Source: a virus
Virus record (IMG/VR): IMGVR_UViG_3300044625_000093
Coordinates: 1-26,231 of that record
Length of the DNA: 26,231 nt
Strand: one strand, 5' to 3'
The first letter of the stretch is position 1; every line of letters begins with the position of its first letter. The notes below the pieces were generated by a model. The model did not search any database. It was not told the origin of the DNA and was given only the letters and a program-made list of their open reading frames with translations. The position numbers and the translations under genes are program-made. Shown here in pieces: positions 3-20,289 of this stretch.

Positions 3-3000
3 CTAGTACTTCCTGGAAGAGATGAAGGAACTCCAGGATTAAGCAAGGCTGCACAGGGACGTATAACTAAAGCAGTTCAAGATCAACAAAGATTATTAAG
101 ACAGCAAAATAGATTTACAGAGCAGCAAATACAAGATGCTCTAAAAAGATATAGACAAAATAAGGTTGATCAAGAAGTTGCAGCAGCAAACTTAAGAAGA
201 AAGGCTCAACTCGATAGAGAAGAAATAAAAAATAGACAAACAAGAGAAATTACAGAAAAAGAACGAAATACGCAACTTAAAAAAGAAGCAAAGGCAATGA
301 GGCAGGAAAGAGTCAGCAGGTTCTCTGGTGGTGCTTCAATGGCTTTAGGAACCGCTGGAATGGCAGCAATGATGTCTGGAAACGCTGGCATGGGCATGGG
401 CTTAATGGGCGCTTCAGCAGTTGCTGGAATGGCTCCTATGTTTGCTGGTATGGGTCCTCTAGGTTGGGCAGTAACTGGAATAACAGCATTTGCTGGAACA
501 TTGGCTTTAGCAGAAAGAGCAAATAAAAAATATATAGAAGGACAATCTAGGCTAGTAGATGCCACATCTGCAACAACAGATAAAATGGCAAAAATTGGAG
601 AGATGACCAATAGAGTTGGGGCAAGTGAAATCTATTCAAGAAGAAGAGGTTCTGCAGCAGCAGACAGATATACAACTGGTTTTGAACGAGGAAAACAGAT
701 GTTTGGAACAACCTTCTTATCATCTGAACAGGGCAAATCAATATTTGCGTCATTCCAAAAAGATTTAGTTGATAATGGAACAGTTGCGGTACAAAAAATA
801 GCAGTACAACTCGCTGGCTATATTTCAGATGGAATTTTGACTGCTGAACAGGCACATAGTATTGCAACTCAAATAGGAATTGATTTAAACAATACAACAT
901 TGATTTCTCAAATTAGCGGTAAATTGTTAGATCTTGTAGGACCTGAAGGACAAAATTTATTAAAAGATCCACTAAATGTACGTTTAAGATTAGTACAAGA
1001 ACAGGTAAAGTCTACATCACCAACAGGAGACATTGCAGATATCGGAAGAACAGATTATAAGCCTGATGATTTAAGTTATGAATTAAATATGATATCTGAT
1101 TACTTTGATACATATCTTGCTTTGTTTACAACAACTGCTGGAGAAAGAATTGGTGCAACTATTGGAGCAACTGCTGCACAAAACTTAGAGTTTAACCAAG
1201 CCCAGGCAGATTCTTTTGCAAAATATTATGACGATCAAATTGCAGTTTTAGAAAAACAAAAACTGCAAACAACAGAGTTATCAAAACAAGAAAAGATAAT
1301 TAGAGAAATCAGAGATTTAGAAGATTTAAGAGATAAGGGTCTTCAAAAGTTTAAAGATAATAATAAGGCAATATTAGATAATGCAGAAAAACTAAGAATA
1401 GCAATGCAGGGCAATACACCTGGAACAAAGGCATTATTAGGAGCATCTGAAACTCAGATGTTGGACAAATATAAGGGTGGGCCACAAGAACTAGCATCTG
1501 TTGTATTAGCAGAAAAAACAAAGGTAATGGATGCTGACTTAAGACTTAAGATAAATGCAATTGCTGGCAGTGGAATAGTTGGCCCAGATGCATTGACATC
1601 TATGATTAATATATTTGGAGAAGATACTGAAGCGCTATCGTCAAATCTAGACGTAGCAATTTCAAAACAAGATCCAGGTAAGGTATCTGCAATTCTGCAA
1701 ATGTTTGCAGGCTTTGAAAATAAAGATATAGCAAAAACACTTCTTGTAGATTTATTGAAAAAAGATCCTAAGAATTTTGATAAGACAGCATCAACCATAG
1801 CGCTTATGGAAAAGATGGCTGGGAAAGAAATTAATCTAGAAGCATTTTTTGAAGCCGAAGATGCACAGGCTAAACTTGATGATCTAACAAAATCTCTAGA
1901 AGCAGTGGAAAAACTCCCTACCCCAATAACTAAAAAAGCATTGATGGAAATGAAAGAAGTTGGAGGAGTTTCCTTAGACGAAATAATTCCACTATGGGAT
2001 CAATGGGAAAACCTTCCAGATGAAACAAAAAAGACAGTCTTACAGGAATATATAACTGTATATAAAACAATCACAGAGGGAGACGTTGATGCTGAAATTG
2101 CACGAAGAACAGCATCTGGTGGAACAACTGCTGCTTCGTTCTTGGCAGAAAGAACTGATCGTGATCAAGTAAGAAGAGAATTGGCTGCACAAAGAACAAT
2201 GCAGCAAATTAATCAAGACATAGCATCTGCTACAGCAAATAAAAATGGGGACCCAAGCAGTGGTGGGAAAAAAGAAGACCCATACGAGTGGCTATTGTCA
2301 AGATTAAAGAATGTAAGAAACGCAGCCATCAATGCTGCTGGAGGACTAAGTGAATTAAATAAAGCCCTTGCAAAGTCTGGAACAAAATCTGTTAAAGATA
2401 AATTTGTTGGATTAGAACAACAACTTATGGGCATGAAAACAAATCGTCAGTTTATTGACTGGATTACGGGCATGGATCCAAAGGAGCAGGCAAAATGGGT
2501 AAAGACTGCTACGAAGAAAAATGTTAATCCATTTACTGGTAAAAAAGAAAAGGGTATAAAGGTTGGACAGGCAGTACTAAGTAAAGATGCACAAAAGTAT
2601 GAGAGAGGTCTTGATGCTGCCATAGTTGGAGACTTTAATGTTTCTCAACAAAAATCATTAGATAATATTAAATATCAAGAACAGGCTTATAGAAAATTAA
2701 TAGCAGCAGGATATGATAACGTAACTATACAAAGAATTCTTGAAGATGAATATATGACTCAGCAGGTTGCCTTAAATCAAATAACTAAAGAAGAGTTAGC
2801 AATTAATGCTAATTTAGCAAAACAAACTTCAATAAGAGAAAGAATGAATTCTTTAATTCAGACAGGCAGAGATGCCCTACAGCAACAAGCAAACATAAAA
2901 CAAGTACCAGAAGTTATAAAGTTTTTCCAAGAATTAGCGCAAGGAGGACTATCACTATCTTCTGGCGCCCTAATGGATATTATAGGTGATCCAACACAAC

Positions 3001-5144
3001 TTTCTGCAGCCATCGCAGCAATGGAAGATTACAAGTCTGGCGCAGAGGGTGCAGCCGATAGACTAAAAGAAATAGTTAATGGATTAAATGCAATTAAAGA
3101 AAATTCAAATATTCAAATAGTTATTGACTTTGTACAAAAGAATTTAGCACAAAAGGCCCAGGCTGGTTTAGAGGCAGCACAGAAAGTTCTTGCTGCAAAG
3201 AGAACAGTATACGGAAATCTAACTGTAGGCGAATTGGCTGGACAGACTTCTAAAAATCCATTAACTGGAAATACAACACAAGTTGGACGTTTGGCAAAAG
3301 AAAGAGTTGATGCAAGATTTTCAGCACCAGGCGGACCAGGTATCCCTAATGTTGCTGGAAAAACTCTTGTTGGCGTTCAAAAGCAAAGAGAAGATGTTGC
3401 AAAAAGAATGCAGGCTGTTCAACTTAAAACAAGAGAAATTCAAGGAAGGTATTCAACAGCACAAGATGAATTAACAAAGGCACAAGATAATCTTGAAAAG
3501 GCTTTGGATGCTGTTGATAAAAAATATGACGATTTAATAAAAACTCAAAAAGATAAAATAGATTCTATTGAAGAGCAAATTAAGGTAGAGTTTGAAGATA
3601 AGATAACAGCATTAAATAAAGAAAGTGGAAAATTAAGTAATGACCTTGCCATAATGGATAATTTGGCAGAAAAGATTAATACAAAGTATGATAAACAGGT
3701 TGAGGCTTTACAAAAAGTAAGTGATATTAATCAAGATATTGCAAATAGTCAAAAGCAACAGTTAGGGTTAGCAGATGCCTTAACTCAGGGAGACATTGCA
3801 GCAGCAGCAAGAGCAGCACAAGAAATGAGAGCATCAGAACAAGAAAGAATGATGAATGCTCAAATGTCAAGCATTGAACAAGCAAGAAACAATGAACTCA
3901 ATGCCCTACGTGGTGCAGAAACTGGAATGACACGGGAACAGATTAGCGAAAGACAATTCCAGATATCACAAGAAATTTATAAACTTGAAAATGATCCTAG
4001 AAGACTTGAACTTGAAAAACAAATTGAGGCTGCACAGAGAGAAATAACAAGACTTGAAAAAGAAAGAGTTGTAGAATTAGATAAAGCAAGAGTTCTTAAT
4101 GAAAAGGCTATTGCAGATGCTCAGGCAAAATTAGATCTTGTAAAGGCAGAACTAGATAATCAAAATAAAATATTGGCTACCCTTGAAGCAGAAGATCTAG
4201 AACTAGAATCACAAGAGGCATACTTACAATCTATTGTAGATGAAGCAATTGCATTAGATGATAGCACTGGAATGACTCTTGAAAAATGGATAGAGACTTC
4301 AGAAAAATTAGTTGACATTGAAGAGTTGGCCCAAAACTACGCTATTGCTTTGGCAGCAGCAGAGGCTTCAGCAGCAGCAACAGATGCCTCATGGCAAAGC
4401 ATATTAGATACTATTAATGCAATTCCAGAAAGTATTACAACACAGCATATCATTAATGAAATAAGAAATATTACTGAAAATATTACTAGATATATAACTA
4501 CAATAGATCTTGGTGGTGGTGGCAACGGAAACGGCAACGGAAACGGCAACGGCAACGGCAACGGAAACGGCAACGGCAACGGAAACGGCAACGGAAACGG
4601 CAACGGCAACGGCAACGGCAATGGCCCAGGGAATAGCGGGAAAGATGCTTCTGGAGGGAATAACGATTTAGGTGGAGATGGACATCTAACAGCGTTAGCA
4701 TTAGCACAAAAAGCAGCAGCAGACAAAGCAGCAGCAGATGCAGCAGCGACAATCGCTGCACAAAAAGCAGCAGATGCAGCAGCAGATGCAGCATTTAATT
4801 TATTAAATGGTGGCTACGTATTTGATTTTGGTATAGGGTATAGAGCCAAGGGTGGACTCATAAATCCAATGAATTTTGCTATGGGTGGTTTAGCAAAGGG
4901 TACTGACACAGTGCCAGCAATGCTTACACCAGGAGAATTTATAATGAGCAAGTATGCTGTAGATACACATGGCATAGATAAAATGAGGTCTATTAATAGT
5001 GGGGACTCAGTTGGGGACTCAGTGTATAATTATAGTATTAGTGTTAATGTTAAATCTGATGCAAACCCTGATGAAATTGCAAGGGCAGTAATGACTCAGA
5101 TTAAACAAGTAGATGCCAAAAAACTCAGGGGAGCAAGATTATAA
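3..5144 (+). CDS. Tail tape measure protein, 5' end cut by window
   Basis: The reading frame is open from the first bases and gives 1713 residues before the stop, so the true start lies upstream. Tape measure proteins fill the tail tube, set its length and leave during DNA ejection. Visible support: a charged helical N-terminal part; a Gly/Ala/Met-rich hydrophobic stretch (about 333-520) of the kind that can insert in membranes; long helical regions with a strong coiled coil at about 3400-4260; and a C-terminal segment with the GTDTVPAMLTPGEFIM motif (4899-4946), which recurs at the C-terminus of many phage tape measures. Size and position before tail-tip genes agree. By the usual rule of about 0.15 nm per residue, the tail would be at least about 250 nm. 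Between the coiled coil and the C-terminal motif lie a Gly-Asn tract and an Ala-rich tract, listed separately. The stop overlaps the next start by one base. Confidence 0.93.
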   Translation, partial: LVLPGRDEGTPGLSKAAQGRITKAVQDQQRLLRQQNRFTEQQIQDALKRYRQNKVDQEVAAANLRRKAQLDREEIKNRQTREITEKERNTQLKKEAKAMRQERVSRFSGGASMALGTAGMAAMMSGNAGMGMGLMGASAVAGMAPMFAGMGPLGWAVTGITAFAGTLALAERANKKYIEGQSRLVDATSATTDKMAKIGEMTNRVGASEIYSRRRGSAAADRYTTGFERGKQMFGTTFLSSEQGKSIFASFQKDLVDNGTVAVQKIAVQLAGYISDGILTAEQAHSIATQIGIDLNNTTLISQISGKLLDLVGPEGQNLLKDPLNVRLRLVQEQVKSTSPTGDIADIGRTDYKPDDLSYELNMISDYFDTYLALFTTTAGERIGATIGATAAQNLEFNQAQADSFAKYYDDQIAVLEKQKLQTTELSKQEKIIREIRDLEDLRDKGLQKFKDNNKAILDNAEKLRIAMQGNTPGTKALLGASETQMLDKYKGGPQELASVVLAEKTKVMDADLRLKINAIAGSGIVGPDALTSMINIFGEDTEALSSNLDVAISKQDPGKVSAILQMFAGFENKDIAKTLLVDLLKKDPKNFDKTASTIALMEKMAGKEINLEAFFEAEDAQAKLDDLTKSLEAVEKLPTPITKKALMEMKEVGGVSLDEIIPLWDQWENLPDETKKTVLQEYITVYKTITEGDVDAEIARRTASGGTTAASFLAERTDRDQVRRELAAQRTMQQINQDIASATANKNGDPSSGGKKEDPYEWLLSRLKNVRNAAINAAGGLSELNKALAKSGTKSVKDKFVGLEQQLMGMKTNRQFIDWITGMDPKEQAKWVKTATKKNVNPFTGKKEKGIKVGQAVLSKDAQKYERGLDAAIVGDFNVSQQKSLDNIKYQEQAYRKLIAAGYDNVTIQRILEDEYMTQQVALNQITKEELAINANLAKQTSIRERMNSLIQTGRDALQQQANIKQVPEVIKFFQELAQGGLSLSSGALMDIIGDPTQLSAAIAAMEDYKSGAEGAADRLKEIVNGLNAIKENSNIQIVIDFVQKNLAQKAQAGLEAAQKVLAAKRTVYGNLTVGELAGQTSKNPLTGNTTQVGRLAKERVDARFSAPGGPGIPNVAGKTLVGVQKQREDVAKRMQAVQLKTREIQGRYSTAQDELTKAQDNLEKALDAVDKKYDDLIKTQKDKIDSIEEQIKVEFEDKITALNKESGKLSNDLAIMDNLAEKINTKYDKQVEALQKVSDINQDIANSQKQQLGLADALTQGDIAAAARAAQEMRASEQERMMNAQMSSIEQARNNELNALRGAETGMTREQISERQFQISQEIYKLENDPRRLELEKQIEAAQREITRLEKERVVELDKARVLNEKAIADAQAKLDLVKAELDNQNKILATLEAEDLELESQEAYLQSIVDEAIALDDSTGMTLEKWIETSEKLVDIEELAQNYAIALAAAEASAAATDASWQSILDTINAIPESITTQHIINEIRNITENITRYITTIDLGGGGNGNGNGNGNGNGNGNGNGNGNGNGNGNGNGNGNGPGNSGKDASGGNNDLGGDGHLTALALAQKAAADKAAADAAATIAAQKAADAAADAAFNLLNGGYVFDFGIGYRAKGGLINPMNFAMGGLAKGTDTVPAMLTPGEFIMSKYAVDTHGIDKMRSINSGDSVGDSVYNYSISVNVKSDANPDEIARAVMTQIKQVDAKKLRGARL
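4521..4625 (+). repeat. Hexanucleotide (GGN AAC) tract encoding 17 Gly-Asn units
   Basis: An in-frame run of Gly-Asn codon pairs inside the tape measure gene. Glycine codons alternate irregularly between GGC and GGA, while asparagine is AAC throughout except the last unit (AAT). It is preceded by three GGT glycine codons and followed by Pro-Gly-Asn-Ser-Gly. It is far more GC-rich than its surroundings. The tract is probably a flexible linker; its length could vary by slippage. Confidence 0.97.
4713..4793 (+). repeat. GCA-rich alanine tract
   Basis: Runs of two to three GCA codons separated by AAA or GAT codons encode a low-complexity helix made mostly of Ala with Lys and Asp. It lies about 90 bases after the Gly-Asn tract, in the same tape measure gene. 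The blocks look like imperfect duplications of an Ala-Ala-Ala-Asp unit. Confidence 0.85.
5001..5023 (+). repeat. Short direct repeat in tape measure gene
   Basis: Two copies of the 11-mer GGGGACTCAGT, offset by 12 bases, encode Gly-Asp-Ser-Val twice in a row. This is a small in-frame tandem duplication close to the 3' end of the tape measure gene. Confidence 0.9.
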
Positions 5145-5785
5145 TGTCAACATCACCATATATGTTAGGTAGAAAGAAATATCAAAGACCACAAGCAATG
5201 CTTTGGTCTGAGAATTCTGGAACCTTAGTATCTGGTTTGTATGTGCCAAATGGATTAGAGGTAGGTCAAGATCCAGGATCTGAGGTAGATGAATCTGTTT
5301 ATAATCAATTTTTAATATTATCAGATGACAATAGATCATCTATAGATTTTAATAATAATAGAATTGAAACTCGTGAAAGAATGATAAATGGTAGAATGAG
5401 ATCCTATCATGTTGCAGATAAGTTAACGATATCAACATCTTGGCAAATGCTACCCTCAAGGTCATATTTTACTGTTCCTGATTTTAATCCAACTACTGGA
5501 ATTTCTCCTCATGCTGGGTCTAATAATTTAGAATATACAACAGACGGCGGTGCTGGAGGGGTAGAGATATTAGACTGGTACGAAAATCATCAAGGCCCAT
5601 TTTGGGTTTATTTAGCCTATGACAAATATTCAAATTTTGGTAAAGACTCAAGTGCGTATGCTCATCTTGCACAATATAATCAACTATTACAAATGTATTT
5701 TTCTGATTTTAGTTATAGCGTTGTTAAGCGTGGAGGAAGTAATTTTGACTTCTGGAACATATCAATAACACTGGAAGAAGTATAA
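5144..5785 (+). CDS. Tail protein, distal-tail-like (putative)
   Basis: Encodes 213 residues. Its ATG overlaps the tape measure stop by one base and its stop overlaps the next ATG by one base, so all three genes are translationally coupled. In siphoviruses this position, between tape measure and tail-tip hub, is usually held by the distal tail (Dit) protein, which forms the ring joining tube and tip. The sequence looks like an all-beta virion protein, rich in aromatic, Asn, Ser and Gly residues, with no signal peptide or membrane segment. I see no diagnostic motif, so the assignment rests on position and size. Confidence 0.6.
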   Translation: MSTSPYMLGRKKYQRPQAMLWSENSGTLVSGLYVPNGLEVGQDPGSEVDESVYNQFLILSDDNRSSIDFNNNRIETRERMINGRMRSYHVADKLTISTSWQMLPSRSYFTVPDFNPTTGISPHAGSNNLEYTTDGGAGGVEILDWYENHQGPFWVYLAYDKYSNFGKDSSAYAHLAQYNQLLQMYFSDFSYSVVKRGGSNFDFWNISITLEEV

Positions 5786-8700
5786 TGTTTCAAAACGAAG
5801 ATCTTAAATTACATTTAGAAACATCTCCAACAGTCAAAACACAGTCTGCAGTTATTGCAGAATGGAATATGAATATTGCTAATAATATATTTAGAATAGG
5901 AAATTATAGATATAGGCCTTCTGCAGAAAACTCTGAAAAATATAAGTTAATACCAAATACTTTTGATGTAAACGACATAGGAAACTTTTACACTGGAGCA
6001 ACTAATTCAGATATAGTTATAGACGGAGGAATCAGTCCAGAAGATAATGAAGAGCCGTGGTTTTTATTAGCAGAAAATAAAAAATCTTCTATGCTTTACT
6101 CTTTAGAAGATTGCTTTAAAAGATTTAGACCAAGATCTGGAATAAATAAGGCTGCATATTTTCCAGGTAGAAAACTACATCATTCAAATATAAATATGTC
6201 TAATAGGCCAAGATATTATATGGCAGATAAAAACGACAAGTTTAAATATTGGACTTCTTTTAGATCAGATGGAGATGCGTTAAGAGGAATTGCAAATAAC
6301 TTCTCTGCTGGTCAATATTTTATAGATGATGCTGCTCCTTTTGTAGTTTATGATAATCCAGTTCCAGCAAATAGAATAGTAATAAAAATGCAAACAAATG
6401 TTGGCTCTATCGACCTGGGTCCATTTTCAGGCTCTTCTGGATCCTTTCCAGACCCACTATATGGAGACGTAAATAAAACAACACCAGTAAGATGGAAAAT
6501 TCAATCATTACAGGGAAATAACTGGGTAGATATAATTAATTTCAATTCTGGGAAAACAAGAAGAAACGGTTTTCCAATTATAAGTAATGACGGTTATGTA
6601 GAGTTATCTTACGGACTAAAGGTTCCAGATAAGTATAGAGATGTTTTTGTTCGTGCAGAAGAATATTCCGATGTTTCTTTTAAACCAGAAAAATCAATAA
6701 ATGGATATGCATATTTAATTAAGCCCAATCAAACAGATTTAGGCGAGTATCATATTTGGTTTGATAATCAATGGGAAACTTTTATCCCAGAATACGGCTG
6801 GTCCCTAGAGGAAGAAACTGTTGACAGGCTTACAAATTTTGTTACTGATTTTGTTGATCCAGTAAAATTTACTTCTACATCCGACGGAAGAGATATATAT
6901 AGAGAGTTTGAATTTATAAAAGGATTAAGAATTGTTGTAGATACTATGAATACAGTTAACTCAACATTTGATTTAATCGAACTATCCCCAAGACTTACTG
7001 CAGATATTAGTGACAAAGTAGTATCTTTTAATGTATCAAAAACTGCATCAGATCTAGGCACAAGCGGATTGCCAGTAGGACAGTTATTAGCATCTAATGG
7101 AAATCTTAGTATTTTTGATTATGATAATTCTTTTAATGAAAACAATACCTTAAGCATTATAAAAGACTATACCTCAAATAATATACAAATAAAGTTTTAT
7201 GACATAACTGTTAATGTAGATGGATACGATTATTTTGTTCCAATTAAAACTATGTACTCTGAAGGGTTTCCATCCATATCACATTCAGATAGAAAAGTTG
7301 ACATTATTTTAAGAGACTTATATTTTTATTTTGAATCTTTAAAAGCGCCCGAGATGTTGGTAACAAATGTTTCTTTAAGTTATGCTATATCATTATTGTT
7401 AGACTCTATAGGATTTTCTAATTATGTTTTTAAAAGATTAACAAGCGAAAAAGAATTAATAATTCCTTTCTTTTATATTGCTCCAGATAAAACAGTTGCT
7501 GAAGTTTTAAATGATCTTGCTAGGTCTACACAAACAGCAATGTTTTTTGATGAATATAATAATTTCGTAATGATGAGTAAAAACTATATTCTACCGTCAA
7601 ACAACGAAAGAGAAACAGACACAACTCTTTACGGATCAAATGATTTTGTTAAATCAGGAATTAGAGAAAATGCAAACTCTCAATCAAAATTAGCAAATAT
7701 TTTTGAAATATCTTCAGAAGAAAGAAACGTATACAACGATGGAGTAATTAATTACGATACCAGATATATACAAAGATCTTATGGAAGTATCAAGCAGGCA
7801 TCTATGATTGATAATGAAGTTGCTGCAAAAAACTGGATATATAAACCAGTATTGCTTTGGGAAATAACTGGAGATCAAAATGTTAGATCTTTAAATGGCG
7901 AAGTCTCTAATCAATCATCTTATAATTTATCTGCAATACCGCTTACTTCTAATCTTACAGCAGACGTTCCTATTGTAATAGGAAATAACTTAACCAATAA
8001 TATTATTGATTTAGGAGAGGCAGTATATTGGTTAGGAAGATATAACGGATATTTTTATGCTAATGGAGAAATTATAAAATTTGATGCAGTTCAATACAGT
8101 ATTCCTGGAGCACAAAAAAATATTTTAACAGAAGAAGTAGATGGGAAAATAGTTTATACTACAGAAACTGTTGGGGCAGTAGGAAATGTATGGATAAGCA
8201 GTAACCAAGAATATCAAGATTATATGTCTAAATTAACTTTTAATGGAAAAATGTATCCTACAGGATTTGTAAGAATATACGCAGAGCCTAAATATGAAGA
8301 AATAAATGGAATAACAGTTATGAAAAACGGAGATGTTGCAAGGCATGGACGTGGACAGTTTGGCACAAAGATAGTCTCACATGACGCTGGATTAAATTTA
8401 TACTGGTCAAATGATACATATCTTAGAGGATTTAATATGCTAAGTCACAAGTTATTTGGTTTAAAGCCAGGAGATGTTTATACTCAAGTTGAAATTTTAG
8501 AAGAAGATTTGTCTACAACAATTCCAGCATCTCCAGATCCAGTCAGGGCAAAACAAAATACAAGAACTGGAGTAATTAAAAACTTCTTGTCATATTCTTA
8601 TATAAATGAATCAGAAAAAAATACAAACAAATCTACGCAGGCTGGATCTGTTCAATCTTCAGCATTAGTGATGAGTGGTCCATCTTTTAGCACAACTGAA

Positions 8701-10182
8701 TCAGCAATTAATTTTGTTTCTTATCAATATAAAGCACTAGATAACAAGTATAAACACTTCGGGACTAGAATGCGTATTATAGGTAAATATGAGATTGGGG
8801 ACACAAAAGAACAAAGCCCAGTCAATTCCGTTCCATACTATGTTCTTCCTGGAACTCAGCCAGATCAAACCCTAAACATATCTGGAGGATCTGGAGGATT
8901 GGCAGTAATGGTTAATCCAGATACAAATATTGGATATTATTTTGAAATTGTAGCATTGACTGAAAAAAATATAAGTAAATACTCTTCAGACGTTACTAAC
9001 TTACACAATATTATTTTTTATAAAATTAAATCTGATTTAACAGGTGCAGCCGTTCCAATTAAATTGTGGGGCGGGTTAAGTAATATAATGGTTGATACTG
9101 GAAACTTTACTGGGCAAGCAAGAATGATGGGAGAAGAAAACCCAACAGTTTATGACTTAGCAGTTGAGTATCAAGATATTGGATCTGTTAGAAGATTTTA
9201 TTTATATATAAATAATAATTTAATTAAAGTAGTTGATGACCCAAGACCTTTACCAATATATAACAATATGGCATTATTTGTTCGAGGCGGATCAAAATGT
9301 ATGTTTGAAAATGTATATGCGCTTGCAAATAACTATAGCCAAAATACATCATTCTCTTTAGAAACTCCAGTTGCAGCAGCATTCGGAGATGAACATATAG
9401 ATGCTAACGAGTCATTTAGAAAATACGCTATGTCTGGAATGATCCAATCAACATATCTATCTGGAATAAATACAGGTCAGCCACCATCATTTAATATTTA
9501 TTTTGATGAGTTTGGAACTATTATGAGAGAGGCTGCATATCTAAAAATAAAATATGATAAGGCATACCCTGCTATTTATGCACAATTATCTCCAACATTT
9601 AATAGAATAAAAGGTTACACAACTTCTGGATTTAAGGCTGGATCTTACGGTGCTGAATTTTTAATTTTTAATGCCACTGACACATCTATCAATTTAGACG
9701 AGACAAGTGGAAATTATTTAAGAATACAAGGAATAACTTTTACTCAAGAGTCAAACAATCAATTATCTGTTGATTCATACTTTGCAAAAAATGCAAACTT
9801 CTCTGATCCAGTAATTGGAAAAGATGGATTGATAGTATCTCCTTTAAGATCTGCTCTAGACTATGATAAGATAAAGACAAGCAGATTAAGTTATGGGAAA
9901 AAAGAATTTTCATTAGACACTCCATATGTACAGTCAAATGATGATGCGAATGAATTAATGGGATGGATGATCAATAAAATTCTTAGACCAAGGAAGAATG
10001 TTGGAGTAAAGATATTTGCTAACCCTATCATCCAGTTAGGAGATATAGTTAATATACTATATAAGGATAGCGAAGGAACTGATATAATAGCATCTGAGGA
10101 TACTAGGTTTGTTGTATATCATATAGAATACAGCAAAGACTATAATGGCCCAGAAATGACTATATATCTAAGTGAGGTTTAA
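5785..10182 (+). CDS. Large tail-tip / hub protein with lectin-like region
   Basis: Encodes 1465 residues, translationally coupled to the gene before it. Size and place fit the tail-associated hub (Tal / minor tail) protein that closes the tail tube and carries receptor-binding parts. Residues about 530-610 hold a short helical region followed by beta strands, reminiscent of a hub domain. The C-terminus (about 1390-1465) contains LGDIVNILY and ends in a beta-rich segment that resembles the end of baseplate hub proteins. Residues about 1050-1190 look like a concanavalin/LamG-type jelly roll: alternating strands with FYLYINNNLIKVVDDP and a closing Phe-Glu-Asn-Val strand. This suggests carbohydrate binding at the tail tip. 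Arginine is almost always AGA, unlike in the replication genes. Domain calls are by eye and need structure prediction. Confidence 0.75.
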   Translation: MFQNEDLKLHLETSPTVKTQSAVIAEWNMNIANNIFRIGNYRYRPSAENSEKYKLIPNTFDVNDIGNFYTGATNSDIVIDGGISPEDNEEPWFLLAENKKSSMLYSLEDCFKRFRPRSGINKAAYFPGRKLHHSNINMSNRPRYYMADKNDKFKYWTSFRSDGDALRGIANNFSAGQYFIDDAAPFVVYDNPVPANRIVIKMQTNVGSIDLGPFSGSSGSFPDPLYGDVNKTTPVRWKIQSLQGNNWVDIINFNSGKTRRNGFPIISNDGYVELSYGLKVPDKYRDVFVRAEEYSDVSFKPEKSINGYAYLIKPNQTDLGEYHIWFDNQWETFIPEYGWSLEEETVDRLTNFVTDFVDPVKFTSTSDGRDIYREFEFIKGLRIVVDTMNTVNSTFDLIELSPRLTADISDKVVSFNVSKTASDLGTSGLPVGQLLASNGNLSIFDYDNSFNENNTLSIIKDYTSNNIQIKFYDITVNVDGYDYFVPIKTMYSEGFPSISHSDRKVDIILRDLYFYFESLKAPEMLVTNVSLSYAISLLLDSIGFSNYVFKRLTSEKELIIPFFYIAPDKTVAEVLNDLARSTQTAMFFDEYNNFVMMSKNYILPSNNERETDTTLYGSNDFVKSGIRENANSQSKLANIFEISSEERNVYNDGVINYDTRYIQRSYGSIKQASMIDNEVAAKNWIYKPVLLWEITGDQNVRSLNGEVSNQSSYNLSAIPLTSNLTADVPIVIGNNLTNNIIDLGEAVYWLGRYNGYFYANGEIIKFDAVQYSIPGAQKNILTEEVDGKIVYTTETVGAVGNVWISSNQEYQDYMSKLTFNGKMYPTGFVRIYAEPKYEEINGITVMKNGDVARHGRGQFGTKIVSHDAGLNLYWSNDTYLRGFNMLSHKLFGLKPGDVYTQVEILEEDLSTTIPASPDPVRAKQNTRTGVIKNFLSYSYINESEKNTNKSTQAGSVQSSALVMSGPSFSTTESAINFVSYQYKALDNKYKHFGTRMRIIGKYEIGDTKEQSPVNSVPYYVLPGTQPDQTLNISGGSGGLAVMVNPDTNIGYYFEIVALTEKNISKYSSDVTNLHNIIFYKIKSDLTGAAVPIKLWGGLSNIMVDTGNFTGQARMMGEENPTVYDLAVEYQDIGSVRRFYLYINNNLIKVVDDPRPLPIYNNMALFVRGGSKCMFENVYALANNYSQNTSFSLETPVAAAFGDEHIDANESFRKYAMSGMIQSTYLSGINTGQPPSFNIYFDEFGTIMREAAYLKIKYDKAYPAIYAQLSPTFNRIKGYTTSGFKAGSYGAEFLIFNATDTSINLDETSGNYLRIQGITFTQESNNQLSVDSYFAKNANFSDPVIGKDGLIVSPLRSALDYDKIKTSRLSYGKKEFSLDTPYVQSNDDANELMGWMINKILRPRKNVGVKIFANPIIQLGDIVNILYKDSEGTDIIASEDTRFVVYHIEYSKDYNGPEMTIYLSEV

Positions 10183-13597: not shown

Positions 13598-13906
13598 GTG
13601 GCAGAAAAACAGCAGCGATTTGCTCTGTTGAGTAGGTTTGATAAACACTATAACTTTAAACTAGGGCAAAAGCCAAATTATAATAAATGGGTAGAGCAAA
13701 GCAAGGCAGATGCTCTTATAGAGTCTTATGGGCTTGATAAGTGCTATGAACTATTAGAGTATTACTTTGAAACAGTCGATTCTCCAGACTGGAAACATTT
13801 TTGTTATTTTGCACAGTATATACTAGAAGCAAAAGATAGATACGATAGAGATTTAACAGAACGACAACAGCGTAGACAAAAGGCAAAGGAGTGGCTGGGT
13901 GAATAA
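13598..13906 (+). CDS. Unknown; candidate helicase accessory protein
   Basis: Encodes 102 residues from a GTG one base after the preceding stop; the end overlaps the helicase start by eight bases. The protein is mostly helical and charged, with an aromatic central part (YYFETVDSPDWKHFCYFAQY) and a very basic tail (ERQQRRQKAKEWL). Position directly before the DnaB-like helicase, with translational coupling, is where phages often keep a helicase loader or replication-initiation protein. There is no ATPase motif, so it would be a loader of the small non-ATPase kind, if a loader at all. That role is inference from context. Confidence 0.6.
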   Translation: MAEKQQRFALLSRFDKHYNFKLGQKPNYNKWVEQSKADALIESYGLDKCYELLEYYFETVDSPDWKHFCYFAQYILEAKDRYDRDLTERQQRRQKAKEWLGE

Positions 13907-15125
13907 TACAGAATCAAAATTAATCTCAGCCGTATTACAAGATAAGCAGGCTCATGTTCTTTTACAGGCCAACATAGAGAACATATTAGTTACACATGTA
14001 GATGTATGGCAGTTTATTAGAAAATATTATGAGAATAATGGTACAGTCCCACCAAAAGATTTAGTTATAGAAAAATTTAGGGATTTTGAATTAGTATCTG
14101 GAACAGGATCTACCAAGCATCATCTTGAAGAACTTCAGGCTGAGTATCTTACAAATAGTCTAAAAGATATTATTAGGTCTGCTGCCACGGATGTACAGGG
14201 TGGACAAGGTGTAGAGGCGCTTGAAACTCTTATCACAAAAACAGCAGAACTTAGAAAAAATACTGCAGCCATTCGTGACATTGATGTGACTGATTTAGAT
14301 TCGGCAGTTGCATATTTTGAAAATTTAAAAAAGCAACAAGAGGCTGGGGCTATAGGCATTAAAACAGGTCTTCCAGGATTTGATAACTACTTACCCTCTG
14401 GAATCATGCCTGGGCAGTTAGGAGTATTCCTTGCATATCCAGGTATAGGAAAGTCATGGTTGTCTCTCTATTTCGCTGTGCAGGCCTGGAAACAGGGTCG
14501 TAGCCCAATGATCATAAGTCTTGAAATGTCTGAGGTTGAGGTTCGAAATCGTGTATTTGCCATTATGGGCGAAGGCCTTTGGTCACATCGTAAATTAAGT
14601 GCAGGGCAGATTGAAATGGATATGCTTAAGTCTTGGCACACTAAAAGCGTTCAAGGAAAGCCAGAGTTCCATATTATTTCAAACGATACTGGAGGAGATA
14701 TTACTCCATTAGTCTTGCGTGGAAAGATTGACCAATACAAACCAGACTTTGTTATTGTTGACTATTTACAACTTATGTCTCCAAACCAAAAGTCTGATAA
14801 TGAAACTGTTCGCATGAAGAACTTATCTCGTGAATTAAAGTTAATGGCAATTTCTGAAGAGGTGCCGATTATTGCAATTTCTTCTGCAACCCCAGACGAT
14901 GTTACCAAACTTGAAACCGTGCCAACACTTGGTCAAACAGCATGGTCAAGACAGATTGCATATGATGCTGATTGGGTTTTGGCTTTAGGTCGAGGTACTA
15001 ATAGCGATATTATTGAGTGCGTATTTAGAAAGAATCGTAACGGTTTTATGGGAGAATTCTTAGTTCAGGCTGATTTTGACAAGGGATATTACAGATATAA
15101 GGATTATGAAGATAAGACAGTATAA
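13899..15125 (+). CDS. dnaB: DnaB-like replicative DNA helicase
   Basis: Encodes 408 residues from a GTG with AAGGAG at 13885-13890. The N-terminal 140 residues are helical, as in DnaB N-terminal domains. The RecA-like ATPase core follows: Walker A A179-YPGIG-K185-S186 (Ala in first place is normal for DnaB), the switch segment MIISLEMSE, Walker B with Asp288 in FVIVDYLQLMS, and near the C-terminus KNRNG with Arg380, matching the family arginine finger. It is slightly shorter than the bacterial enzyme (about 470). It would form the hexamer that unwinds the fork, working with the primase, single-strand-binding protein and polymerase encoded downstream. In the expected GAISQLSR region it has SSATPDDVTKLE, a variation worth noting. 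Confidence 0.92.
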   Translation: MNNTESKLISAVLQDKQAHVLLQANIENILVTHVDVWQFIRKYYENNGTVPPKDLVIEKFRDFELVSGTGSTKHHLEELQAEYLTNSLKDIIRSAATDVQGGQGVEALETLITKTAELRKNTAAIRDIDVTDLDSAVAYFENLKKQQEAGAIGIKTGLPGFDNYLPSGIMPGQLGVFLAYPGIGKSWLSLYFAVQAWKQGRSPMIISLEMSEVEVRNRVFAIMGEGLWSHRKLSAGQIEMDMLKSWHTKSVQGKPEFHIISNDTGGDITPLVLRGKIDQYKPDFVIVDYLQLMSPNQKSDNETVRMKNLSRELKLMAISEEVPIIAISSATPDDVTKLETVPTLGQTAWSRQIAYDADWVLALGRGTNSDIIECVFRKNRNGFMGEFLVQADFDKGYYRYKDYEDKTV

Positions 15126-15133
15126 TATGGGGT

Positions 15134-15460
15134 ATGGAGACATATCAGCACAAACCTATCAAAAGGTTTGGTTTAGACGGAGTCATCAATGATGATTCTG
15201 CTATCTACAGATTACAGCAAGAATATATCAGGCTACTGGTATCAGAAATGCGACTATCTGGCTATGCTCCAAGACTTGACATTGATCCACAATTTACATT
15301 ATCATATAACCAAACAAAAAATTACTTTGAATTTAAACTAAGCGTATACGGAATATATATAGGGAGAAAAAAGACAGAATGGATACTAGGGATAGACGGC
15401 AACAAACCAATTTATACACAGCCAATCAGATTAAAAGAGTACTCGCAGGATCTGGCATAA
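15134..15460 (+). CDS. Unknown protein between helicase and primase
   Basis: Encodes 108 residues. The ATG follows the helicase stop by eight bases with only a poor, too-close GGGG as ribosome site, so coupling to the helicase may drive translation. The last 82 bases overlap the primase start in another frame. The sequence begins with KPIKRFGLDGVINDDSAIY, then a helix (RLQQEYIRLLVSEMRLSG), then two to three strands rich in Tyr. There is no cysteine or catalytic motif. Conserved position inside a replication operon suggests an accessory role; I do not recognise it. Confidence 0.6.
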   Translation: METYQHKPIKRFGLDGVINDDSAIYRLQQEYIRLLVSEMRLSGYAPRLDIDPQFTLSYNQTKNYFEFKLSVYGIYIGRKKTEWILGIDGNKPIYTQPIRLKEYSQDLA

Positions 15461-16323
15461 CTGTAGAAAAAGAAGCAGAGTCCGAATACATAGTTTTTTG
15501 TCCATTCCATTCTAACAACCGTACCCCCGCTGGAGAAATAAATAAATTCAGTGGATTATTTTTTTGTTTTTCTTGTAGCAAAACAGCAGACTTAATAGAA
15601 CTTGTAATGCATTTTTCTAATAGAACATATTTTGAGGCTGTTAGATTTATTAAAAGTAAAGAAATAGAGATAGATATATTATCAGATATTAATAGTAAAC
15701 TTGTAGAAAAAGAAGAGTGGACAGAGTTTGATATGTCTATTGTCAATAGACTGCATGAACAGGCCATGTCTTCTGAAAGAGCAAAAGAATATTTTATTAA
15801 AAGAAAAATAACTAAAGGTTCTGTTGTTAAATTTAAACTTGGATATTCTGAAAGCCAAGACATGATATCTATACCAGTTTATAACCATGAGGGTATATGT
15901 GTAGGGTTTGTTGCACGATCTATTGAGGGCAAAGACTTTAAGAATACAGTGAAGTTACCTAAGTCTAAATTATTATTTAATCTCAATAAAGTTAAAACTG
16001 CCTCTAAGGTTTATGTAGTAGAGTCATCATTTGATGCTATAAGGTTAGACCAGGTAGGGTTTCCAGCAGTTGCTACATTAGGTGCCAACGTATCATCAAA
16101 ACAAATAGATTTGCTTCAAAAATACTTTAGCGATATAATAGTTATTGCTGATAATGATGAAGCAGGCGGTAACATGAAAGAAAAATTAATCGAAAGATTA
16201 GAAGGAAATGTTACTGTAATTAACCTAAATAAACAATATAAAGATATAGGCGATATGGATGACGAGTCAATAAAAGAACTACAGTATCAGTTTGACAAAT
16301 CAATACTGTCTATGCTAAAATAG
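15379..16323 (+). CDS. dnaG: DnaG-type DNA primase
   Basis: Encodes 314 residues, starting inside the previous gene. It has the two hallmarks of bacterial-type primases: an N-terminal zinc finger with Cys41, His44, Cys63 and Cys66 (CPFH and CFSC), and a TOPRIM domain with Glu215 in VVESSFDAI and Asp258-Asn-Asp260 in IADNDEAGG, which bind the catalytic metals. It lacks the C-terminal helicase-binding domain of cellular DnaG (about 580 residues), as phage primases often do. It would make RNA primers for the DnaE polymerase encoded two genes downstream. The ribosome site is weak (GGAG at 15362-15365, 13 bases upstream), so the exact start is uncertain by some residues. Its 3' end holds the promoter for the next gene. 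Confidence 0.9.
   Translation: MDTRDRRQQTNLYTANQIKRVLAGSGITVEKEAESEYIVFCPFHSNNRTPAGEINKFSGLFFCFSCSKTADLIELVMHFSNRTYFEAVRFIKSKEIEIDILSDINSKLVEKEEWTEFDMSIVNRLHEQAMSSERAKEYFIKRKITKGSVVKFKLGYSESQDMISIPVYNHEGICVGFVARSIEGKDFKNTVKLPKSKLLFNLNKVKTASKVYVVESSFDAIRLDQVGFPAVATLGANVSSKQIDLLQKYFSDIIVIADNDEAGGNMKEKLIERLEGNVTVINLNKQYKDIGDMDDESIKELQYQFDKSILSMLK
16292..16321 (+). promoter_or_regulatory. Strong sigma70-like promoter before single-strand-binding gene
   Basis: A perfect -35 TTGACA (16292-16297) and TAAAAT -10 (16316-16321) are 18 bases apart. TGC just upstream of the -10 (16313-16315) makes it an extended -10. The expected transcript would begin near 16328 and carry AAGGAG at 16332-16337, seven bases before the ATG. 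It overlaps the primase 3' end and stop. It is the best promoter in the window. Confidence 0.7.
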
Positions 16324-16344
16324 AAAAAACAAAGGAGAAAAACT

Positions 16345-17007
16345 ATGAGCGTTATTAAGGGACTAAAAAATATAAATGCCCTGCTCGATAAGAAAAATGA
16401 TGAAGGCGCACCAAAGGTACGCTGGCTTAAGTTGGCTGATGGACAGTCAGTCAAGATTCGTTTTATTGAAGAACTTGATGAAGATTCAGCACATTATCTT
16501 GAGGAGCGTGGACTTGCACTTGTTGTCAAGGAGCACACAAATCCAAAGGATTATAAGCGTAAGGCTGTAGATACTCTTGACACAGAAGGCCGTGACTGGG
16601 CTGAAGAAATGTATCGCAAGGATCCGAAGGGCAATAGTGGTTGGCGAGGTCGTCTTCGCTTTTACTGTAACGTACTTGTCGACGATGGCATGGAAGAAAA
16701 GCCTTATGTTGCCATTTGGTCAATGGGCGTAAGCAAGCAGTCTGCATTTAATACAATTCGTGAGTATGCTCTTGAAACAGGAAGCATCTCAAACGTTGTG
16801 TGGAAGTTAAAGCGTAATGGTCAGGGAACTGAAACATCATACACTTTGATTCCGTCTGCTCCAGATAAGGAGCCATTTAATTGGGAAGGCATTGAGCCAT
16901 ATCCACTAGAGAAAGCATTGCGACGTGTTCCATATGCAGAACAAGAAGCATTCTATCTTGGATTTGATTCGCCTTCATCTACATCAGCGACGAATATCGA
17001 CTGGTAG
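16345..17007 (+). CDS. ssb: Single-stranded DNA-binding protein (putative)
   Basis: Encodes 220 residues, with a strong ribosome site and promoter just upstream. The core contains strands of OB-fold type: SGWRGRLRFYCNVLVDDG, KPYVAIWSMGVSKQSAF, then NVVWKLKRNGQGTETSYTLIP, which resemble phage single-strand-binding proteins of the gp32-like group. The N-terminus is a short helix followed by a strand pair. The C-terminal tail is Ser/Thr-rich and ends with Asp-Trp rather than being strongly acidic. It lies between primase and polymerase, as expected. All 13 arginines use CGN codons and lysine is often AAG, whereas neighbours and the tail genes use mainly AGA. This suggests selection for high expression. 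The protein would coat fork and recombination intermediates. Confidence 0.7.
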   Translation: MSVIKGLKNINALLDKKNDEGAPKVRWLKLADGQSVKIRFIEELDEDSAHYLEERGLALVVKEHTNPKDYKRKAVDTLDTEGRDWAEEMYRKDPKGNSGWRGRLRFYCNVLVDDGMEEKPYVAIWSMGVSKQSAFNTIREYALETGSISNVVWKLKRNGQGTETSYTLIPSAPDKEPFNWEGIEPYPLEKALRRVPYAEQEAFYLGFDSPSSTSATNIDW

Positions 17008-17010
17008 TAG

Positions 17011-20000
17011 ATGAACTACGTCCCATTACATTTACATACTCACTTTTCACTATTCGATGGTATTGGGTTGCCATCTGAATACGTTGACCGTGCTATAAAA
17101 TTGGGTATGCCAGCAATAGGAATTACAGACCATGGCTCCCTTTCTGGCCACAGAGAAATGTATCGTGTTGCTAAATCTAATGGGATAAAGCCTATTCTTG
17201 GCATAGAAGGGTATATGTGTGAAGATAGATTCGATCAGCGAGACAAAGCAGATAGAACAACTCCACTCGATATGGTTTATAATCATATTATCCTTCTTGC
17301 CAAGAATCAGGTAGGCTTAGAAAACCTTAATAAGTTAAATGAAATTGCTTGGACAGAAGGTTATTATAAAAAGCCAAGAATAGATTTTGAAGTACTTGCA
17401 AAATATAAAGAAGGAATAATTGTATCCTCTGCATGCCCAAGCGGAATTATTGCCAAGTCAATAGAACTTGGTGAACTTGGAATGGCAAAGAAATATATTA
17501 AATGGTTTAAAGAGCAATTTGGCGATGACTATTATTTAGAGGTTATGCCACATAATGATGAGTCAATAAACAGAAATATATTGTTGCTGGCAGACGAGTT
17601 TGGTGTTAAGCCAATTGTAACTCCAGATTGCCACCATGTTGATCCGTCACAAAAAGAAGTGCAAGAGTTAAAATTAATTCTTAACACATACTCTAATAAG
17701 ATTCAAAAAGATGCTACATATGAAAAGTCTAAAAAGCAAGGCGACCTAATGAAACGCCTTGATTATTTATACGGCGCAGACAGGCAGATGTCATTTAATA
17801 AGTTTGACATACACCTTCTTTCGTATGAAGAGATCCAGGCTGCTATGGAAAAGCAAGCAATTTGGAGAACTGATATTTATGAAAATACTATTGAACTTGC
17901 AAACAAGATAGAAGATTACGACATTAAAGATGGGCTAAATCTTTTGCCAGTTCAATATAAGAATCCAGACAAACAGTTGTCTGATCTTGCTTATGAGGGC
18001 TTAAAGTCTAAGGGATTGTCTGATAACCAAGTTTATGTTGATAGACTTGAAGAAGAACTCAAAGTTATTAAAGATAAAAAGTTTGGACCTTATTTTCTTG
18101 TTGTTCAAAGCATGATATCTTGGGCAAAAAAAGAAGGCATTATGGTTGGTCCAGGACGTGGATCATCTGCAGGCTCACTGCTTTGCTACACACTTGGAAT
18201 TACAGATATTGATCCTATAGAACACGGCTTGTTGTTTTTCCGATTTATTAATCCAGAGCGTAACGATTTTCCAGACATTGATACAGATATTCAAGATACT
18301 CGTCGTGATGAGGTAAAAGATTATCTTGTTAAACAATATAAGCATGTTGCTTCTATTGCTACATTTTTAGAATTTAAAGATAAAGGTGTTGTGCGAGATG
18401 TTGCTCGTGCATTAAATATTCCATTGACAGATGTAAATAAAGTGTTGAAGTTAGTAGATACATGGGATGAATACTGCACTTCAAAAACCACTGCATGGTT
18501 TAGAGAGAAATATCCAGAGGTAGAACAATATGGAGAACAACTTCGTGGTCGCATTAGAGGTACTGGCATACACGCTGCTGGCGTTGTCACTAGCAAAAAT
18601 CCTATTTTTAGGTACGCACCGATGGAGACACGCAACTCTCCTGGTAGCGATGATCGCATACCTGTCGTGGCGGTGGACATGGAAGAGGCTGAGAAAATCG
18701 GACTCATCAAAATCGACGCACTTGGTCTTAAAACTTTAAGTGTTATTAATGATACCTTAAAGATTATTAAGGAGCGTGAAGGCACAGATATAGATCTTTT
18801 AAAGTTAGATATGGCTGATCAAAAAGTTTATCAAATGCTTTCTGAAGGCTATACAAAGGGTGTATTTCAGTGTGAAGCAACCCCATACACAAACCTACTG
18901 GTTAAAATGGGAGTCAAGAGTCTTGCTGAATTATCTGCTTCCAATGCCCTAGTTCGTCCAGGCGCTATGAATACTATTGGTAAAGACTATATCGAACGTA
19001 AGCATGGCAGACAGGCAGTAAATTATTTACATCAAACTATGAAGCCGTTCACACAAGAAACATATGGGTGTATCCTATACCAAGAGCAGGTTATGCAGGC
19101 CTGCGTTGAACTCGGAGGGATGTCTTGGTCTGAAGCGGACAAGGTTCGTAAGATCATTGGTAAAAAGAAAGATGCTAGAGAATTTGATGTTTTTCGTGAT
19201 AAGTTTGTTAGCGGTGCTTCTAAGTTTGTTAGTCCTAATCAGGCTCGTGATTTATGGCATGACTTTGAGGCGCATGCGGGCTATTCGTTCAACAAGTCTC
19301 ATGCGGTTGCTTACTCTACGCTCTCGTATTGGACGGCATGGTTAAAGTATTATTATCCAATTGAGTTTATGTATTCATTATTAAAAAATGAAAGGGACAA
19401 AGATGCACGAACTGAATATCTTATTGAAGCGAAAAGAATGGGCATTAGCATTAAGTTGCCTCACATTAATGATTCGGATATTGATTTTAAGATTGAGGGT
19501 AAAGGCATTCGGTTTGGACTCTCAGGGATCAAGTTCATCTCTGATAAAATTGCAGAACGCTATATATCAGCACGACCTTTTAAGTCTTTTGAGGCACTTA
19601 GAGATTTCACGTTTACAAAAGGAAATGGAGTAAATAGTAGAGCACTAGAGGCACTAAGAATTATTGGTGCAGCAACATTCCCAGATAATCCTAGAAATGA
19701 TAATGAGATTCGTGATAACTTGTATGAGTATTTGGGCTTACCAGAATTTACACAGACTGTTCCATCACATTATCATGCATTCATTAATCCTGTTGAGGAT
19801 TTTGAAGAAAAAGGATCTTTTATTTTGATGGGAATGGTAAAGGGAATTAAACGAGGCAAGGGTTGGTCTCGTGTAGAAATATTAGATAAAACTGGAAGTG
19901 TGGGTATATTTGATGAAGAACAAACGACTATTGAGGCTGGACGAAGTTATATTGCACTTTGTTCTGATAACAGAATTGTTAGTGCTATTCCTGTGGACGA

Positions 20001-20289
20001 GATAAAAGGATCAGATTCTGCATTAATTAAATTTTTAAATTATAGAATGTTACCTTATAAAGATGATGAGTTATTTGTGGTATCATTTAAACCAAGAGTA
20101 ACGAAAGCAGGCAAAAAGATGGCTTCTCTGACTCTAGCAGACACCTCTAGAGAACTTCATCCAGTTACAGTATTTCCTACTGCTTTTGCTAAAGCATATA
20201 TGAAAATTGAAGAAGGTCATGCATACAAGTTTGAGTTAGGTAAAACTAAAGACGGTACAGTAATATTGGAGGATATCAATGTCGGTTAG
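17011..20289 (+). CDS. dnaE: DNA polymerase III alpha subunit, DnaE type
   Basis: Encodes 1092 residues, close to the bacterial length of about 1160. The N-terminal PHP domain keeps its metal ligands: HLHTH at 7-11, TDHG with Asp40-His41, then CPSG, EVMPH and PDCHHVD. The catalytic core has GPGRGSSAG, the PDIDTD motif with Asp422, Asp424 and Asp426, and Asp569 in KIDALGLKTL, covering the expected polymerase aspartates. LVRPGAMNT, YQEQVMQ and GYSFNKSHA follow. The C-terminus holds OB-like segments at about 935-970 and 1020-1060. There is no inserted exonuclease domain, so it is not PolC. The intact PHP suggests possible self-proofreading, and no separate epsilon subunit or sliding clamp is encoded in the window. 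It starts three bases after the preceding stop and overlaps the RecA start by 11 bases. Confidence 0.96.
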   Translation: MNYVPLHLHTHFSLFDGIGLPSEYVDRAIKLGMPAIGITDHGSLSGHREMYRVAKSNGIKPILGIEGYMCEDRFDQRDKADRTTPLDMVYNHIILLAKNQVGLENLNKLNEIAWTEGYYKKPRIDFEVLAKYKEGIIVSSACPSGIIAKSIELGELGMAKKYIKWFKEQFGDDYYLEVMPHNDESINRNILLLADEFGVKPIVTPDCHHVDPSQKEVQELKLILNTYSNKIQKDATYEKSKKQGDLMKRLDYLYGADRQMSFNKFDIHLLSYEEIQAAMEKQAIWRTDIYENTIELANKIEDYDIKDGLNLLPVQYKNPDKQLSDLAYEGLKSKGLSDNQVYVDRLEEELKVIKDKKFGPYFLVVQSMISWAKKEGIMVGPGRGSSAGSLLCYTLGITDIDPIEHGLLFFRFINPERNDFPDIDTDIQDTRRDEVKDYLVKQYKHVASIATFLEFKDKGVVRDVARALNIPLTDVNKVLKLVDTWDEYCTSKTTAWFREKYPEVEQYGEQLRGRIRGTGIHAAGVVTSKNPIFRYAPMETRNSPGSDDRIPVVAVDMEEAEKIGLIKIDALGLKTLSVINDTLKIIKEREGTDIDLLKLDMADQKVYQMLSEGYTKGVFQCEATPYTNLLVKMGVKSLAELSASNALVRPGAMNTIGKDYIERKHGRQAVNYLHQTMKPFTQETYGCILYQEQVMQACVELGGMSWSEADKVRKIIGKKKDAREFDVFRDKFVSGASKFVSPNQARDLWHDFEAHAGYSFNKSHAVAYSTLSYWTAWLKYYYPIEFMYSLLKNERDKDARTEYLIEAKRMGISIKLPHINDSDIDFKIEGKGIRFGLSGIKFISDKIAERYISARPFKSFEALRDFTFTKGNGVNSRALEALRIIGAATFPDNPRNDNEIRDNLYEYLGLPEFTQTVPSHYHAFINPVEDFEEKGSFILMGMVKGIKRGKGWSRVEILDKTGSVGIFDEEQTTIEAGRSYIALCSDNRIVSAIPVDEIKGSDSALIKFLNYRMLPYKDDELFVVSFKPRVTKAGKKMASLTLADTSRELHPVTVFPTAFAKAYMKIEEGHAYKFELGKTKDGTVILEDINVG

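Follow-up and report, generated by a model that had tools for sequence, protein, structure and literature searches.

The Gly-Asn tract and its gene

The window, by which we mean the whole stretch of 26,231 nucleotides that makes up the IMG/VR virus record IMGVR_UViG_3300044625_000093, begins inside a very long gene that, judged by its relatives, encodes a tape measure protein (TMP), and within this gene lies a hexanucleotide repeat read as seventeen consecutive Gly-Asn dipeptides. The open reading frame (ORF), at positions 3-5144 of the plus strand, is already open at the window edge; its 5' end is cut, no start falls within the window, and the last 1,713 amino acids of the protein are visible. 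By itself this part of the protein matched no TMP model in Pfam or PHROGs. Its relatives were collected from IMG/VR, where a first search gave 7 loci and a second 36, with six common to both. Complete relatives with an intact upstream frame measure 2,993-3,297 amino acids from stop to stop, and the N-terminal part of relatives matches PF10145 (PhageMin_Tail; E 1.9e-29 in L002, 7.6e-27 in L028 and 3.1e-23 in L030) as well as phrog_10030, tail length tape measure protein (E 3.1e-101 in L002 and 7.8e-96 in L028). The window gene is assigned to the tape measure proteins through these relatives, its protein being 69% identical to those of L002 and L003 across the shared part. The original prediction, made from the letters of the window, had placed the tract inside a tape measure gene, and the relatives that retain the N-terminal part bear this out.

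The arrangement of the locus is that of a very long gene followed by tail genes, PHROGs identifying a minor tail protein and tail proteins downstream. The next gene on the plus strand, at 5144-5785, encodes 213 amino acids and matches phrog_1194, a family of unknown function (E 7e-9); after it comes, at 5785-10182, a gene of 1,465 amino acids that matches the minor tail protein family phrog_10359 (E 1.8e-56). In L005 the tape measure frame is broken upstream of 7610 though the match runs on upstream, by a frameshift that is either real or a product of assembly.

Direct reading of positions 4521-4622 in the frame of the gene gives 17 units of the form GGN AAY, that is (Gly-Asn)17, followed by a half unit GGC at 4623-4625; Tandem Repeats Finder reports the tract as 4521-4625, with a period of 6, 17.5 copies and a score of 168. 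Three glycine codons GGT GGT GGT (4512-4520) abut it on the left, and the tracts of L010 and L012 are preceded by the same GGTGGTGGT. Given nothing but the composition of the remaining protein, about 1e-38 runs of (GN)17 would be expected. The tract has a GC content of 61%, against 37% for the tape measure gene and 35% for the whole window, and its codons are just as distinct: glycine is written with 12 GGC and 5 GGA, and asparagine with 16 AAC and 1 AAT, whereas outside the tract the gene uses GGC for 21 of 123 glycine codons and AAC for 13 of 85 asparagine codons (Fisher P 1.3e-5 and 5.2e-10, respectively). On all of these points the original prediction read the sequence correctly, having described a 17-unit Gly-Asn hexanucleotide tract, GC-rich within an AT-rich gene, with asparagine nearly always AAC and glycine GGC or GGA. 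Growth codon by codon would follow the usage of the gene; since the codons of the tract differ from those of the rest of the gene, it looks like copies of a founder unit. The frame stays open and the units are multiples of three, so that the tract does not qualify as a switch that would turn the gene on and off by changes of frame. Two profile matches over the tract, to Pfam TrAA12 (E 8.8e-6, below the cut-off of that family) and to phrog_815 (E 1.7e-4, unknown function), are set aside as matches of composition, the Gly-Asn fragment of L010 giving TrAA12 too.

A variable slot before the C-terminal end

In the family the tract occupies a slot with a conserved border on either side. The left edge, IRNITENITRYI, lies at 4461-4496 in the window and was recognised in an alignment of 14 sequences, with a counterpart in more distant members; the right border is the conserved C-terminal end, which runs from the motif VPAMLTPGEF to the stop and comprises 77 amino acids in the window (VPAMLTPGEFIMSKYAV ... 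RGARL, 4911-5141). A scan of viral contigs with the back-translated left edge found 19 stretches, 15 of which are this tape measure. For the comparison of slots, 38 sequences (the window and L002-L038) were brought to 23 rows, 15 of them distinct in the last 400 amino acids; L011, L018, L023 and L027, in whose available DNA no ORF has the end motif, and the more distant L026 and L029-L038 were left out, and the family members found later, L169, L384 and L392, stand outside all counts. From motif to stop the C-terminal end measures 77 or 78 amino acids in 23/23 rows, whereas the slot ranges from 67 to 211 amino acids among the 15 distinct members. Its length thus differs between relatives; one fixed length in all of them had been named beforehand as the outcome that would speak against a changeable tract. 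The rod-length figures of L005 (966; frame broken) and L007 are not comparable with those of the other members.

What fills the slot is simple repeats of several kinds. Perfect tandem amino-acid repeats, taken as those of at least 8 amino acids, are found in the slot of 12 of the 15 members and nowhere else in the available sequence, which is partial for the window (1,713 amino acids) and L005 (1,184 amino acids). Gly-Asn runs occur as (GN)17 in the window, (GN)24 in L010 and L012, (GN)6 together with (GGS)4 in L024, and (GN)5 in L004 and L006. Other members have GGNN runs, (GGNN)3 in L002, L007 and L008 and (GGNN)4 in L003, and others again poly-Asn (L005, L009), poly-Ser (L013, L016), poly-Gly (L020) or TGA repeats (L022). 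The text that follows the GN run is common to the window, L004 and L024 (GNSG...DLGGDG, with GLGGDG in L024), so the runs of 17, 5 and 6 units in these three are likely to be homologous.

Closely related pairs show how the slot changes. L002 and L003, aligned over 9,387 nucleotides, differ by 13 substitutions and a single insertion-deletion (indel), a 12-bp GGNN unit of the slot, and L013 and L016, 97.5% identical, differ by five indels, two of which (15 and 6 bp) fall within it. Pooled, the two pairs have 3 of 6 indels in a slot that takes up 2-6% of the gene (P 0.004 in a binomial test at 6%). In a third pair, L004 and L024 (92.9% identity), the slot holds 7 of 10 indels, some of which the aligner may have split. 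As far as sequence comparison goes, in-frame gain and loss of repeats is thus real in the family relatives of the window. The idea that units come and go without frameshift holds for these relatives, which change by whole codons, as in the 12-bp step between L002 and L003; the nearest relatives of the window itself share only 68-80% protein identity with it (best segments). The remaining indels of close pairs cluster in mid-protein (nucleotides 5336-5735 in the tape measure ORFs of L013 and L004), where a second variable site may exist.

The mode of growth had also been addressed by the original prediction, in which a few larger units were thought to have been multiplied. For the window this did not hold up: units 1-7 equal units 10-16, but so long a repeated run is matched in shuffled tracts (P 0.34), and the best lag, of nine units, is not significant either (P 0.12). 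It finds its counterpart in L010, where a 36-bp (six-unit) period extends over most of the tract; because this period is significant by shuffling (P 0.0008), larger blocks were probably copied there.

Besides repeats, the slot position holds modules. The Cys motif CPxGFVKNASGQCVP occurs once or twice in the slots of L004, L005, L006 and L024, and in the scan of viral contigs its core was found in these four contigs only. A second module, marked by WISDGKGGW, was found in 18 stretches of viral contigs, 4 of them family tape measures already known and 14 further ones, two of which come from the L014 and L015 contigs. In these 14 a long ORF carries the module, which as a rule follows a simple stretch (PT, QTG, DPNAGKT or GN), and AMLTPGEF is found downstream in 9 of them. 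As WISDGKGGW..KP, this module stands at the tape measure slot position in L013, L014, L016, L169 and L379-L392. The Pfam matches to L016 (E up to 0.1) all fell short of their curated cut-offs. In L030 (1288-9810; E 6.5e-14) and L031 (2641-9948; E 1.1e-14) a LysM domain (PF01476) lies about 18 amino acids before the conserved C-terminal end; these two have no left edge, and the domain is assigned to the same slot by position alone. A Peptidase M23 domain lies near the TMP C-terminus in the Streptomyces phages Yaboi, LilMartin and Tomas (L373, L374 and L375; 3 of 3 examined), a location which hints that the C-terminal position of the TMP is a cargo site.

Neither the Gly-Asn run nor the end motif is a signature of tape measures. 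As a hallmark the run was rejected: of the 119 matches listed with at least 7 GN units, one (L154) belongs to an ORF that also has the TMP end motif, its units corresponding to those at the end of the L010 tract, and runs of at least 17 units number two among those listed (L060, L106), many of these ORFs being short and of unchecked gene status. Gly-Asn linkers are common outside tape measures. Many of the loci L039-L118 carry runs of 7-10 units in other viral ORFs, often in the context LRKENGHSVD...KN(GN)n...LRDWFGKS. The end motif is also shared by a protein of Synechococcus phage S-SCSM1 annotated as an endolysin. As a general marker of slot repeats it shows a modest difference that we do not rely on: among the matches listed, 7 of 45 ORFs with an end of 70-90 amino acids have a tandem repeat before the motif, compared with 3 of 61 others, where a repeat is one of G/N/S/T/P/D/K/Q of at least 9 amino acids in the 250 amino acids before the motif, in at least 120 stretches from which 14 with less than 300 amino acids upstream were dropped.

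What the tract may do

An AlphaFold2 model of a fragment of 398 amino acids, with a mean predicted local distance difference test (pLDDT) of 53.7 and a predicted template modelling score (pTM) of 0.26, shows long helices up to protein residue 1500 and leaves the tract without secondary structure (block pLDDT 35-36). After the tract follows an Ala-rich predicted helix at protein residues 1564-1602 (fragment residues 249-287, nucleotides 4692-4808, with imperfect AGC/12-bp repeats in the DNA), for which block pLDDT is 65-75 at fragment residues 251-280. The helices and the position of the slot support the earlier placing of the tract between a coiled coil and a C-terminal motif.

We consider it fairly likely that the Gly-Asn tract is a flexible, likely unstructured and drifting tether that joins the helical rod to the conserved 77-amino-acid C-terminal end. 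The same order of parts is found in studied phages and suggests a tether. In TP901-1, JBD30 and lambda the C-terminal end of the TMP is found in the tail tip; in lambda it is the C-terminal helix of gpH that has been located there, and in JBD30 the tip-anchored C-terminal domain is preceded by residues that are predicted to lack structure and whose length would suffice to cross the baseplate channel. For the TMP of TP901-1, the final 30 amino acids are described as essential, while deletions within 810-875 still allow limited infection; about 127 amino acids at its two ends make no contribution to tail length, and its C-terminus is attached to the initiator complex (PMC5099701). By analogy with these siphophages, the C-terminal end of the window protein would sit in the tail tip, and the tether would let it pack in the tip and exit at infection. 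Almost any flexible, soluble sequence would serve and its exact text would hardly matter, so that the slot would be free to grow and shrink, by in-frame gain and loss of repeats through slippage or unequal exchange. Such drift would have little or no effect on tail length, and some phages would use the slot position to carry cell-wall modules.

Other explanations give the tract a more exacting role or none. As the original prediction had it, repeat number might tune the length of a linker or that of the tail, and in the latter case the tract would be part of the measured ruler and slippage would adjust tail length. Tail length is set by tape measure length, and the slot does shift by repeat units; the authors of the TP901-1 work suggest that repeats ease gain and loss (PMC5099701), and related prophage TMPs are reported to differ in repeat number, with four or three 44-amino-acid blocks (PMC3271669). 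As a ruler, however, the tract would be out of place: it immediately precedes the C-terminal end, the part found in the tail tip of known phages, perfect simple repeats are absent from the rod of the 15 sequences, and Gly-Asn lacks the helix-forming character of a ruler sequence. With a two-amino-acid unit and no aromatic residue, the tract, the part of the protein examined for this, is unlike the 11- or 18-amino-acid ruler units marked by Trp/Phe. One ring of the tail tube has a spacing of about 4 nm, far above what a single Gly-Asn unit would contribute. As a helix, at the 0.15 nm per amino acid implied by the figures for phiCbK, one unit of two amino acids would come to about 0.3 nm and the whole tract to about 5 nm, against a predicted tail of about 450-495 nm (2,993-3,297 amino acids at the same rise); moreover, the terminal amino acids of the TP901-1 protein mentioned above are not counted in tail length. 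Because one unit is so short and the site adjoins the tip end, a role in tail length is unlikely; the linker between rod and C-terminal end is the half of the earlier proposal that stands. It is also rather unlikely that the Gly-Asn text is a low-complexity segment selected for a task of its own, such as binding the wall, a chaperone or tip proteins. Such a task would fit with GN runs in relatives whose tape measures are otherwise quite different (L010, 47% best-segment identity), with their recurrence in other viral ORFs, and with the LysM modules of likely wall function that use the position in L030 and L031, but poly-Asn, poly-Ser, poly-Gly, GGNN and TGA occupy the same place in close members of the family.

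That variation in length is noise, from unit counts gone wrong in the assembly of metagenomic contigs, we regard as very unlikely. Assemblers do stumble here, as both the L011 contig and the L154 stretch end inside their tracts; yet L010 and L012 agree on 24 units in the same order (in two contigs that are not necessarily independent assemblies), the difference between L002 and L003 is a 12-bp unit that short reads span and has further substitutions beside it, the window tract measures 102 bp with mixed GGC/GGA units, and the slot texts differ in kind, beyond number. Least probable of all, to the point of being hardly credible, is that the nucleic acid itself matters, as a G-rich element, a structured messenger RNA or an antisense gene. 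The tract has a GG every six bases, and when G-quadruplexes are allowed, the folding energy of the tract with its flank falls from -29.3 to -42.5 kcal/mol, with the quadruplex at the initial GGT run. The tract alone gains nothing (-16.0 kcal/mol either way). Two minus-strand ORFs, at 4337-4726 and 4498-4794, do overlap the tract, but the PLPLPF and RCRCRF runs that they read are a mechanical product of the repeat, and the DNA pattern is lost where poly-Asn, poly-Ser or GGNN fills the site.

Several observations weigh against a drifting tether. The AlphaFold2 model is weak overall, low confidence is no proof of disorder, and the C-terminal end, which is placed in the tail tip by analogy alone, scores low too. 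The slots of L014, L017 and L028 (3 of 15) hold imperfect repeats only, with no perfect repeat of the length required above. Six of the eight near-identical groups have no indel at all and hence no slot difference; in three of these the members differ by substitutions (11 in L004/L006, 24-44 in L021/L022/L025 and 1 in L386/L391), and in the other three (L010/L011/L012, L014/L015 and L381/L390) by none. Within the near-identical groups compared, no phage showed strain-level differences in the GN tract itself. No linker of this kind stands before the end motif in the more distant proteins of Clavibacter phage CN1A or virus AG-345-O18, and no GN run before the end motif was found in 12 examined of 76 genome-contig loci.

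Beyond the tether itself, we speculate, and hold it to be doubtful, that the slot is an evolvable adaptor site, in which fast turnover of repeats keeps tethers of various lengths present within a population and which takes up wall-binding or wall-cutting modules, adjusting tape exit and envelope crossing in new hosts. The modules that would be involved are LysM, the Cys motif, the WISDGKGGW module and perhaps M23.

Comparison with known systems

The window carries replication genes of its own at 13899-21292 (a DnaB-like helicase, a DnaG-like primase, a DNA polymerase III alpha subunit and RecA), and no tRNA genes were found in it. Its large terminase fragment is 56.6% identical over 477 amino acids to those of Streptomyces phages such as Yaboi (Stanwilliamsviridae).

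Repeats in TMPs, flexible segments ahead of TMP C-termini and low-complexity regions prone to slippage are all known separately (PMC6821194, PMC5099701, PMC3271669). What appears to be new is that changeable simple repeats are confined to a single slot beside the TMP C-terminal end; a search of open-access literature, by titles and the beginnings of abstracts, returned nothing naming a Gly-Asn or low-complexity slot in a TMP. TMP repeats are usually discussed as rulers; in this family, whose TMPs are very long, the simple repeats stand in the slot and away from the rod. If the interpretation is right, the slots would offer a natural series of linker lengths, from 67 to 211 amino acids, with which the measuring and the tethering parts of the tape measure can be told apart, and would mark a site where phages accept foreign modules.

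The nearest isolates, by terminase and by the N-terminal part of the TMP (about 31%), are the Streptomyces phages Yaboi, LilMartin and Tomas, whose TMPs (3 examined of 127 records) have Peptidase M23 near the C-terminus and, unlike the window, no GN linker. A homology of the 77-amino-acid end with the TMP ends of Streptomyces phages, suggested by eye, was not borne out, hhalign giving probabilities of 0.2% and 0.9%. A survey of low-complexity regions (PMC6821194) offers a more general likeness, as regions in phages are reported to be Gly-rich, with a mean length of 33 amino acids and slippage as one proposed origin; asparagine is under-represented in them, whereas it makes up half of the window tract. 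JBD30 resembles the window family in having a helical body, a flexible stretch and then a tip-anchored C-terminal part, and differs in that the stretch is a predicted one which the available description does not call repetitive; a cleavage site and a hook are also proposed for JBD30. With TP901-1 (PMC5099701) and the Clostridium and Bacillus prophage TMPs (PMC3271669) the family shares repeats in the TMP gene and the gain and loss of units between relatives. As described there, however, those units measure 11, 18 or 44 amino acids, carry aromatic marks and belong to the ruler part, whereas the units of the window family, of 1-7 amino acids and rich in Gly, Asn, Ser, Thr and Pro, are confined to the slot before the C-terminal end.

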